Shown: positions 1,134 through 21,160 of the stretch, in pieces
How the letters are laid out: each line of letters starts with the position of its first letter
Position numbering within the stretch: the stretch's first letter is position 1
NCBI RefSeq assembly: GCF_002025255.2
Contig: NZ_CP054587.1
Span: 620,001-684,000 of the forward strand
Direction: 5' to 3'
Length of the DNA: 64,000 nt
Source of the DNA: Halolamina sp. CBA1230
GTDB lineage: Archaea > Halobacteriota > Halobacteria > Halobacteriales > Haloferacaceae
Position numbers and translations under genes: made by a program
The notes under the pieces: generated by a model
Told to the model about the DNA's origin: nothing
The model's input: the letters and a program-made list of their open reading frames with translations, nothing else
Databases searched by the model: none

Positions 1134-1730
1134 ATGAGTACGGAGGAGTCGACGAACGACATCACCAAGGGAACGTACCGCGCGCTCTGTAAGCACGGGT
1201 ACGCCGAGGTGACGATGGAGGATATCGCCGCGGAGACGGACAGGAGCAAGTCCGCGCTACATTACCACTACGACAGCAAGCACGATCTGCTGCTCTCTTT
1301 CTTCGACGATCTGCTCGAGAGCTTCACCGAGCGGCTCGACACCGTCGAGGGTGAGACGGCGTACGATCGCCTGCTGAACCTGATCGACACGGTGCTGTAC
1401 CCGCCGGACGACGACGCCCCCGACCGGGGGTTCCAGACGGCGGTGCTCGAGTTGAAGGCACAGGGCCCCTACGACGAGGCGTTCCGGCGACACCTCAAGC
1501 AGCACGACCGGACGCTGCGTGACCACGTCGAGGAACATCTCTCGGCCGGCGTCGAGAGCGGCGAGTTCCGGACGGACCTCGACGTCGAGGCGTCGGCGGA
1601 TTTCCTCGTGACCGTGTTCAACGGCGCCCAGACCCGGAGCGTCGCGGTCGGTCGGCCGATCGAGGAGACCCGGGAGACGCTGCGGACCCACATCGAGTCG
1701 ACCATCGTCGCCGACGGGGGTGGCGAGTGA
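1134..1730 (+). CDS. TetR/AcrR family transcriptional regulator
   Basis: A 198-residue repressor-type regulator. The N-terminal helix-turn-helix spans about residues 10-55 (VTMEDIAAETDRSKSALHYHYDSK, with the typical ALHYHY recognition helix). It is followed by an all-helical ligand-binding domain with a C-terminal segment ETRETLRTHIEST. The gene overlaps the following MATE pump by 4 bp (GTGA), so the two are translationally coupled. It probably represses the pump and itself through the dyad at 1114-1127. The ligand is unknown. Confidence 0.9.
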   Translation: MSTEESTNDITKGTYRALCKHGYAEVTMEDIAAETDRSKSALHYHYDSKHDLLLSFFDDLLESFTERLDTVEGETAYDRLLNLIDTVLYPPDDDAPDRGFQTAVLELKAQGPYDEAFRRHLKQHDRTLRDHVEEHLSAGVESGEFRTDLDVEASADFLVTVFNGAQTRSVAVGRPIEETRETLRTHIESTIVADGGGE

Positions 1731-3241
1731 GCCTCCGCGGGAAGCTCGCGGGGGCGCGCAAGCTCTTCCACCGCGCGTTCAACCAGGAGGAGCTGGATCT
1801 GACGGAGGGCGGCATCGGGAAGCCGCTGTTCGTGCTCGCGATCCCGATCGTGATCACGAACCTGTTCCAGACCGCCTACAACCTCGCGGACACGTTCTGG
1901 GTCGGCCGATACAGCACGGAGGCGCTGGCCGCGATCAGCTTCGCGTTCCCGATGGTGTTCCTGCTGATCTCGCTGGGGCTGGGCCTCTCCGTCGCGGGCA
2001 GCGTGCTGATCGCCCAGAACATCGGCGCCGGCGACGAGCGACAGGCCGACTACGCCGCCTCACAGACGGTCTCCTTCGCGGTCGTCGCCTCGATCATCCT
2101 CGGCGTGCTCGGCTACTTCGCGGTCGACACGCTCGTCGAGATCTACGGCGCCTCGCCCGACGTGAAGCCGCTGGCGGTCAACTACATGGAGGTGATCTCG
2201 CTGGGGCTGGTGTTCATGTTCGGCTTCATCATGTTCATCTCCCTGATGCGCGGGGCCGGCGACACGGTGACGCCGATGATCGTGATGGGGATCTCGGTGA
2301 TCGTCAACATCGTGCTGGACCCCTTCTTCATCTTCGGGTTCCAGGAGAACCCCCTGTTCGCGATGATCGGGATGCCCGGCCTGCAGGAGCAGCTGTTCGC
2401 GATGACGGGGTACACGGGCGACGGCCTGCGCGGCGCCGCCATCGCGACCATTTTCTCCCGGGCGCTGGCGTTCGTGATCGGCCTGGGGATCATGTTCCGC
2501 GGGAACCAGGGCGTCCAGATCCGGCTGGGCGATATGGCGCCGGATCTCGACTTCGCGAAGCGAATCCTCGAGATCGGCGTGCCCGCGTCCGTCGAGGGTG
2601 TGGGACGGGCGGTCTCGATCAACCTCCTGCTGATCGTCGTCGGGCTGTTCGCGACGCCTGTCGTCTCGGCGTACGGGATCGGCACCAGGGTGCTCTCGGT
2701 GGTGTTCATGCCCGCGATCGCGATGGCCCGCGGCGTGGAGACGATGAGCGGGCAGAACATCGGCGCGGACAAGCCCGACCGCGCGGCCGCGACCGCCGCG
2801 TTCGCGTCGAAAGCCTCGTTCCTGATCCTCTCGGCGGTGGGCGTGATCGCGTTCGTCTGGGCGGAGCCGATCGTCTCGATCTTCGTCGGCGCGGACCAGC
2901 CCGACGCCCCGCGCGTGATCGAGGTGGGCGCGCAGTTCATGCGCTTCGTCGCCCCCACGTTCGGCTTCATGGGGATCATGCGCGCCTACAACGGGAGCTT
3001 CCGCGGTGCCGGGAAGACGACGACCGCGGCGATCATCTCGGTCGGGACGCTGATGGTGTTCCGCCTGCCGGTCGCGTGGGTCGGGTCGCAGACGTTCGCG
3101 CTCGGCCCGGACGGGCTCTGGCTCTCCTTCGCCGTCTCGAACGTGTTCGGCGCGACGGTCGCGTACCTCTGGTACCAGCGCGGGACGTGGCGGGGCGTCG
3201 ATCTGGATCGGACGCCGGGACCGGCGCCCAGTGACGATTGA
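1727..3241 (+). CDS. MATE family efflux transporter
   Basis: Na+- or H+-coupled multidrug and toxin extrusion pump of the cytoplasmic membrane, 504 residues, about 12 membrane helices in two homologous halves. The first half begins GKPLFVLAIPIVITNLFQTAYNLADTFWVGR, a classical MATE start. The second half begins near ILEIGVPASVEGVGRAVSINLLL. It starts with GTG at 1727, overlapping the TGA of the TetR gene. An acidic pre-sequence of about 25 residues precedes helix 1. Substrate unknown. A T-tract at 3253-3257 may help terminate transcription. Confidence 0.92.
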   Translation: MSLRGKLAGARKLFHRAFNQEELDLTEGGIGKPLFVLAIPIVITNLFQTAYNLADTFWVGRYSTEALAAISFAFPMVFLLISLGLGLSVAGSVLIAQNIGAGDERQADYAASQTVSFAVVASIILGVLGYFAVDTLVEIYGASPDVKPLAVNYMEVISLGLVFMFGFIMFISLMRGAGDTVTPMIVMGISVIVNIVLDPFFIFGFQENPLFAMIGMPGLQEQLFAMTGYTGDGLRGAAIATIFSRALAFVIGLGIMFRGNQGVQIRLGDMAPDLDFAKRILEIGVPASVEGVGRAVSINLLLIVVGLFATPVVSAYGIGTRVLSVVFMPAIAMARGVETMSGQNIGADKPDRAAATAAFASKASFLILSAVGVIAFVWAEPIVSIFVGADQPDAPRVIEVGAQFMRFVAPTFGFMGIMRAYNGSFRGAGKTTTAAIISVGTLMVFRLPVAWVGSQTFALGPDGLWLSFAVSNVFGATVAYLWYQRGTWRGVDLDRTPGPAPSDD

Positions 3242-3882
3242 TTCGGACGTCGTTTTTCCATTGGTTTTCGGGAGGTGTCGAATCTTCAGTCGATGGGTTC
3301 TGCGGCGTTGACGGTAGTCGTGTCAGTGACTGCTTCGACGGCAACAGCATCTCGATCGTAGACCACTTGCGACCGCAACCGCCCCGCACAGCCCTCACAC
3401 CTCCCCAACCGATTCGCTCTCTCACTGCGTTCGTTCGCTCGTCCTCCGAGGGAGCGAAGCTCCCTCGTGCCCTCGCTCGTTTCACTCGCGAGGACCTCGC
3501 GCTGTCGTACGGGCGACCCACGCGTCGCCCGTACGGCCTGCGGGACCTCCGGTCCCGCTCTGGTCGCGCCCCGGAGGGCGCTTCCGTTTCGCGCCGACGG
3601 CCACGGCAGTGCGGTGGCGGTGGATGCGAGGGCTCGCCACCGGTCGGCGAGCCCGTGGGGAGGATGAGGGGAAGACTATCGCGGTGCTGGGCGGTCACAA
3701 GTGGTCATGCTTCGAGACGCTGTTGCGGTTCCAGCCGTCGACGGTCGAAACGCTGTCGCGATTGCTGTTCCAGTTGTCGACGCACGAAATTGGGTCACTG
3801 AACATGACTGAACAAAACTCAACGGTCTCTACGCGCAGCTACCAACCACACGATCCCACGTCCACTAACACAGAGAAACGAC
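3242..3882. other. Gene-free block of about 640 bp around the foldback element
   Basis: No convincing gene is seen between the MATE stop and the HTH gene; the open frames here are low-complexity, Arg/Ser-rich and have no recognisable domain. The block holds the foldback at 3341-3726. At 3713-3790 there is an imperfect direct repeat of the motif CGCTGT-CGC-TTCCAG-TGTCGAC. At 3795-3880 GC content drops visibly. A short ATG-led frame starts at 3804 (MTEQNSTVSTRSY) but runs antisense into the next gene, so it is more likely a relic than a gene. Confidence 0.6.
3341..3726. repeat. 386-bp foldback element: 36-bp terminal inverted repeats around six nested palindromes
   Basis: The ends 3341-3376 and 3691-3726 are inverted copies (29 of 36 positions pair, including GACCACTTG and GCAACAGC). 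The interior is a chain of short hairpins. 3448-3466 has an 8-bp stem and 3-nt loop. 3471-3493 has a 6-bp stem. 3506-3535 has a 12-bp stem and 6-nt loop. 3540-3558 has an 8-bp stem and 3-nt loop. 3566-3581 has a 6-bp stem and 4-nt loop. 3630-3654 has a 9-bp stem and 7-nt loop. This density cannot be coding constraint. It could be a non-autonomous mobile element, a structured RNA, or a protein-binding or recombination hotspot. No transposase or target-site duplication was found. Confidence 0.75.
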
Positions 3883-4128
3883 TTACCGAGCGATCCGGCA
3901 CTGATCGCCGGTACGCTCGACGTACCCGGCCGACTGGAGCGACCGCAGCGTCGGCAGCAGTTCGATCAGCTTCAGATCCAGCGCCTCGGCGATCCCGCCG
4001 ACGGTCGTCTCGACGACCGACGAGAGGTAGACGTACACGAGCTTCCCCGCCGTCGAGTCGACGTCCGCGGGCGGTTCTGTGCTGAGCTCTGTCGCTGCGT
4101 CAGTTCGACCGGGCTGCATCTGCGTCAT
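3883..4128 (-). CDS. Small winged-helix (TrmB/MarR-like) regulator
   Basis: An 81-residue protein consisting of a polar N-terminus of about 25 residues and one winged helix: AGKLVYVYLSSVVETTVGGIAEALDLKLIELLPTLRSLQSAGYVER is the usual helix-turn-helix plus wing pattern of haloarchaeal TrmB/MarR-like domains. It has no ligand-binding domain. A TATA-like TTTACG on the minus strand lies about 27 bp before the ATG, which suggests a leaderless transcript. It is divergent from the MIP18-like gene at 4259. Target unknown. Confidence 0.7.
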   Translation of the reverse strand: MTQMQPGRTDAATELSTEPPADVDSTAGKLVYVYLSSVVETTVGGIAEALDLKLIELLPTLRSLQSAGYVERTGDQCRIAR

Positions 4129-20984: not shown

Positions 20985-21160
20985 TGGGAACGGAGGGATT
21001 TGAACCCCCGATCGACTGATATCTCCGGTGCGCCTCGGTCCTCCAGAGGGTCGTCGTCGCCAGCGATGATCAGTCGCCGACTCGGTATATCAGTCTGGAG
21101 TTCGTCACCGGGCGCGTGGCCTCTGGAGTCAGTCGCCATCCCGGGCTTGGCCACGTTCCC
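20985..21160 (-). tRNA. tRNA-Trp (anticodon CCA) with an intron of about 102 nt
   Basis: Acceptor strands GGGAACG (21160-21154) and CGTTCCC (20992-20986) pair over 7 bp, with A73 at 20985. The D-arm is GCCAAGCCCGGGATGGC, the anticodon stem ACTGA/TCAGT, the loop CTCCAGA with CCA, and the T-loop TTCAAAT. Exon 1 is about 21160-21123 and exon 2 about 21020-20985, placing the intron at canonical position 37/38. Flanking helices suit a bulge-helix-bulge splice site. Haloarchaeal Trp introns are known to contain a C/D-box methylation guide; GTGACGA and CTGA elements are visible here. Confidence 0.93.
21021..21122 (-). ncRNA. tRNA-Trp intron, probable C/D-box guide RNA
   Basis: The 102-nt intron contains GTGACGA (box C-like) followed by ACTCCAGACTGA, in which CTGA is box-D'-like and the preceding bases repeat the anticodon-loop region. 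Known haloarchaeal pre-tRNA-Trp introns direct 2'-O-methylation of residues 34 and 39. The assignment here is by analogy. Confidence 0.6.

Follow-up and report, generated by a model that had tools for sequence, protein, structure and literature searches.

What kind of element is the 386-bp foldback at positions 3341-3726 of the window, the 64,000-nucleotide stretch of Halolamina sp. CBA1230 DNA analysed here, and is it kept as RNA, as a DNA structure or as a mobile repeat? It is the longest inverted repeat in this 64-kb window (spacing up to 500 bp) and lies between a MatE gene (1727-3241, plus strand) upstream and a small ORF (3883-4128, minus strand) downstream. We saw no coding role for it, and the ORFs that cross it are mechanical, in line with the absence of coding signal noted in a preliminary description. 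The foldback probably belongs to a dispersed, non-autonomous repeat of the chromosome; symmetrical terminal repeats would let its cassettes be exchanged or inverted, and template switching or conversion would keep its palindromes perfect.

The foldback with 36-nt terminal repeats is present as first described, and its arms match at 29 of 36 positions. As also described, the mismatches cluster: five of the seven fall in a single block (TCGTA versus AGCAT). This block is a variable spot, and we rejected it as a conserved feature because other copies show matching or swapped blocks. The outer arm can be stretched to 49 nt at 76% identity. Counting perfect arms of 6 bp or more between the terminal repeats, we found the six perfect hairpins first called nested; they are arranged in series, all inside the outer stem. 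The features are as follows.

3341-3376, plus strand: left terminal inverted repeat, 36 nt; the inner 16 nt, GACCACTTGCGACCGC, are the best-conserved portion by arm comparison and core count.
3400-3415, plus strand: core motif CCTCCCCAACCGATTC, the family anchor, common to other families of the order, from a genome-wide motif count against a reversed-pattern control.
3447-3467, plus strand: perfect hairpin CGAGGGAGC(GAA)GCTCCCTCG; identical arms carry different loops in other copies.
3472-3501, plus strand: overlapping palindromes CTCGCTCGTTTCACTCGCGAG and CGCGAG(GAC)CTCGCG, of which 3487-3501 is the perfect hairpin.
3506-3535, plus strand: perfect hairpin with 12-bp arms, CGTACGGGCGAC(CCACGC)GTCGCCCGTACG, an optional module that most copies lack.
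3540-3558, plus strand: perfect hairpin GCGGGACC(TCC)GGTCCCGC, an optional module.
3566-3581, plus strand: perfect hairpin GCGCCC(CGGA)GGGCGC.
3630-3654, plus strand: central hairpin GGGCTCGCC(ACCGGTC)GGCGAGCCC; type A copies have many differing yet complementary arms at the equivalent position.
3655-3689, plus strand: type B right-end segment (GTGGGGAGGATGAGGGGAAGACTATCGCGGTGCTG); a congener carries a type A end at the same site.
3691-3726, minus strand: right terminal inverted repeat, 36 nt, 29/36 identical to the left arm.
About 3727-3775, minus strand: degenerate extra copy of the outer-arm unit beyond the right terminal repeat; a congener has a tandem 39-bp array of such units.

With this degenerate outer-arm copy on the right, the real unit is wider than 386 bp. 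Elsewhere in the window, a 176-bp Rfam tRNA match (20985-21160, minus strand), unreported by ARAGORN, is probably an intron-bearing tRNA gene.

We then compared the genome of the window (G000) with three congeners (G004, G005 and G002), a genome of the same family (G021) and one of another family (G057). The core motif CTCCCCARCCGAYTC, allowing up to one mismatch, has 97 matches in G000, 72 in G004, 40 in G021 and 26 in G057, with 0-1 matches per strand for the reversed-pattern control; for the 15-nt core form with up to 1 mismatch, the comparison in G000 is 97 versus 2 in the control. Judged by the core motif, G000 holds about 95 cassettes and G004 about 70. A 14-nt terminal-repeat core, also with up to 1 mismatch, gave 133 matches in G000 versus 7 in the control. 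A DNA search of G000 returned 154 matches, which group into about 40 copies, every one on the main chromosome, and the listed cassette copies are on the main chromosome without exception. All 66 forward-strand terminal-repeat matches are on the 2.9-Mb chromosome and none on the three other contigs; by length, the chance of such placement is about 1e-5. The BLASTN-type check proposed in the preliminary description, for which the lack of any other copy would have formed part of a refutation, thus found many dispersed relatives. Copies of the whole element do exist, but their ends are not sharp as anticipated.

A sample of 107 genera yielded related cores in 11, which all belong to one order and span at least five families, with a similarity across families of about 80-93% over short stretches. 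Cores from outside the genus often come with different outer ends, for example GCCCCTTTCAGTCCCACCC, and G000 itself has one copy with GCCCCTTTCAGTCCCACCC-like ends (L067). In seven loci from other haloarchaeal genera (L072, L078, L082, L084, L085, L086 and L171), GCCCCTTTCAGTCCCACCC / GGGTGGGACTGAAAGGGGC, or something very similar, recurs at the flanks of the cores and may represent a second outer-end type. The phage records and viral contigs searched contain no copy of the family, and a plasmid search gave three weak partial matches (70-74%) in Halorussus. In the literature searched we found no description of this cassette family, and a literature search with six short family sequences turned up just two papers, both unrelated.

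Both ends could be delimited for 58 complete cassettes in two genomes. Common to them are the inner terminal repeat and the core, with optional hairpin modules between; complete copies are mosaic and mostly 230-520 bp long, reaching 643 bp. Degenerate outer-arm units lie beyond the terminal repeats. In the congener G004, a 39-bp tandem array (L143 2264-2599; 8.6 copies at 98%) consists of outer-arm units adjoining a cassette. Right ends are of two types, A and B, the window copy being B. Type B right ends occur in 12 of 34 copies examined in G000 versus 1 of 40 in G004. The type B copies in G000 have arms in common and stretches that are 84-93% identical. Six type B sites of G000 were typed A in G004 by automatic typing, and the window site likewise by eye.

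At the window locus, G004 is thus occupied by a cassette of the other type, and G005 and G002 are empty, their counterparts of the two flanking genes being separated by just a short spacer. By flank comparison, about 22 of 40 compared sites are common to G000 and G004, and at many sites copies are absent in close relatives. At five shared sites (L033/L165, L040/L107, L050/L155, L064/L110 and L068/L108), the whole cassette is inverted between colinear flanks. Among 44 copies tested, the best match lies within the same genome for 30 and is the ortholog for two, both truncated. Inner identity at shared sites (0.75 and 0.65) is the same as that of unrelated pairs (0.76 and 0.65). Outer-flank identity between G000 and G004 is 0.60-0.65 on a baseline of 0.60: non-coding DNA between these two genomes is close to saturated. 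Since the flanking spacer is nearly saturated, cassettes that differ at shared sites have not necessarily been replaced, and the argument for replacement therefore rests on the inversions and the type B burst. The inversions, together with type B copies that are similar within one genome and lie at type A sites of G004, do indicate turnover inside lineages. Copies in one intergenic gap might be independent insertions where the near flanks no longer align.

These data bear on the idea that the family is MITE-like and is moved in trans by a DDE transposase that recognises the terminal repeats and whose own element would have ends matching GACCACTTGYGACCGC. Terminal inverted repeats are present (29/36 in the window, and at the 58 two-ended cassettes of two genomes), the family is non-coding and of high copy number, and congeners have empty sites. 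However, the ends grade into unique spacer and degenerate repeats of the outer arm, and five comparisons of filled and empty sites revealed no clean target duplication; the junctions there are not sharp, and the boundaries are too diverged between species for a duplication to be delimited. Among the matches listed, terminal-repeat pairs are spaced by about 200-520 bp, with no pair at the spacing of an autonomous element, and no transposase partner for the cassettes was found. The confinement to the chromosome, the lack of phage or viral-contig copies and the three weak plasmid matches also speak against such a transposon, which we consider unlikely. The non-autonomous mobile element first suggested as an option gains support from the large number of dispersed copies and from the empty site of two congeners; sharp ends it lacks.

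Other haloarchaeal repeats offer closer parallels. The SMR-A and SMR-B repeats of Haloquadratum walsbyi are non-coding and multi-copy, and their conspicuous terminal inverted repeats show no relation to known transposons; target duplication was not seen, and their mode of mobilisation is unknown (PMC3119063). Our cassettes resemble them in being non-coding and numerous, with terminal repeats that lack kin among known transposons and with no target duplication visible. SMR-A elements are homogeneous, about 110 bp long and inserted into PATEs or IS605 elements (PMC3119063), whereas the cassettes are about 230-640 bp, modular and heterogeneous, and sit in ordinary intergenic gaps, with none at the IS605-type loci examined; we therefore rejected membership in SMR-A. 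PATEs have no terminal inverted repeats, only near-terminal palindromes resembling IS605 ends (PMC3119063). The cassettes are likewise palindrome-rich, non-coding and multi-copy, but we do not assign them to PATEs, since they have terminal repeats of their own and none was found at the IS605-type loci examined: at 41 such loci no cassette with the family core turned up, although one locus, L211, has a partial terminal repeat nearby. An IS605/TnpA/TnpB origin was also rejected. The apparent core matches at IS605 loci have three mismatches; one has two, but the remainder of the core is missing there. In addition, three core-bearing genomes gave no Y1 transposase match. On our best reading, the cassette family is related in kind to the haloarchaeal SMR/MITE/PATE repeats, the transposase-free Haloquadratum repeats being nearest.

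At this L211 locus, which lies on the main chromosome, part of a terminal repeat and an outer-arm unit (about 134-170) are found close to a gene for an IS200-type transposase. The four contigs of G000 (C1-C4) have 48 TnpB-type and 9 Y1 transposase matches, versus 1-7 TnpB matches in four relatives; over half of the G000 TnpB matches come from the three smaller contigs, and none of the cassettes listed is located there.

Bacterial BOX elements and BIME/REPIN palindromes are mosaic intergenic repeats with optional stem-loop modules that occur in either orientation. Compared by description, the cassettes are similarly mosaic, modular and present in both orientations. Their hosts are unrelated, however; no RAYT-type partner is shown for the cassettes, and cassette stems change two-sidedly and their loops flip.

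We then investigated the gene context. The cassettes sit in intergenic gaps between ordinary genes, and convergent gaps exceed divergent ones by about 26 to 6 (p = 0.0005), although these orientation counts rest on rough codon-model gene calls and the gene caller overlooked the small downstream ORF at the window locus, hence misplacing at least that convergent locus. The pattern is compatible both with insertion being tolerated where promoters are absent and with a role behind genes. If the latter, the repeats could be DNA-structure sites with a host role (a cruciform, a nucleoid or replication mark, or a buffer behind genes), bound by a putative conserved haloarchaeal protein, much as in the structure-specific protein site first suggested. 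Conservation of the core across families and restriction to the main chromosome among the matches listed agree with such a role, and the core is better conserved than a purely selfish, decaying repeat would need. But many sites are vacant in close relatives, promoter avoidance is expected of any tolerated repeat and no protein candidate emerged; we regard this explanation as distinctly unlikely. It is quite improbable, too, that the family is a slot-and-cassette system, in which ancestral intergenic slots are bounded by symmetrical repeats and a dedicated, order-wide haloarchaeal factor recognises the conserved core and exchanges and inverts hairpin cassettes between dispersed copies.

When stems show strong compensatory change, a functional RNA is usually taken as proven. 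The covariance analysis proposed at the outset, where a lack of such changes would have counted against the element, found them in abundance. A 12-copy alignment has 17 pairs with two-sided changes. In two widespread type A hairpins, 148 two-sided Watson-Crick changes stand against 4 G.T, 1 A.C and 3 other mismatches, and when arms are shuffled between copies, pairing drops from 0.98 to 0.84 in one hairpin and from 0.99 to 0.48 in the other. For a fold preserved as RNA from one strand, G-U pairs should be acceptable and A-C pairs should not. Of 229 hairpins, 209 are perfect, and their roughly 2,200 pairs include 5 G.T/T.G versus 6 A.C/C.A, although the absolute numbers of wobbles are low and hairpin detection is biased towards perfect stems. 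The three-nucleotide loops occur in both orientations (GAA 17 : TTC 17, GGA 7 : TCC 13, AAA 7 : TTT 4), and some opposite orientations sit on identical arm sequence. In rRNA genes, stable loop classes outnumber the reverse-complement classes by a factor of 8 to 66, and inverted loops have been interpreted as a sign of interstrand template switching (PMC8794818). Cassette orientation relative to tandem neighbour genes is 28 : 18, without significant bias (p = 0.18). The scarcity of wobble pairs, the two-way loops and the lack of significant orientation bias together favour a DNA-level process over an RNA function, and point to palindrome correction by template switching or ectopic conversion rather than an RNA-selected fold. 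A large structured non-coding RNA with many gene copies, one of the options first raised, is therefore very unlikely: it would account for the very strong fold (-239.6 kcal/mol in the window versus -185.1 +/- 6.2 for shuffled sequence, z = -8.8) and the covariation, but not for the lack of G-U excess, the loops in both orientations or the cassettes inverted at the same site, and the foldback has no Rfam match at the gathering score or up to E = 1.

A precedent for such correction exists. Hairpins of rRNA and microRNA genes made by template switch have perfect stems, simultaneous compensatory changes and loop inversions (PMC8794818), and the cassettes share all three. In those genes, however, loop inversion is rare and selected against (PMC8794818), whereas in the cassettes, a dispersed repeat, the two orientations are nearly balanced.

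We thus return to a dispersed repeat whose cassettes are exchanged through their ends. Because both ends carry the same repeat, we infer that ectopic conversion, or replication template switching between the terminal repeats, could overwrite the interior from another copy or turn it over, in either orientation. A template switch inside a hairpin would copy one arm onto the other, so that stems stay perfect, and may sometimes flip the loop. With exchange and stem correction of this kind, the family would persist and spread as DNA. If the cassettes also serve the host, for instance as structural marks downstream of genes, this would be a secondary role.

A dispersed repeat family is now recorded in many haloarchaeal genera. 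Its perfectly covarying stems, with almost no wobble and with loops in either orientation, are a caution for covariation-based RNA discovery in archaea, and the family is a natural test bed for template switching as a maker and keeper of palindromes.
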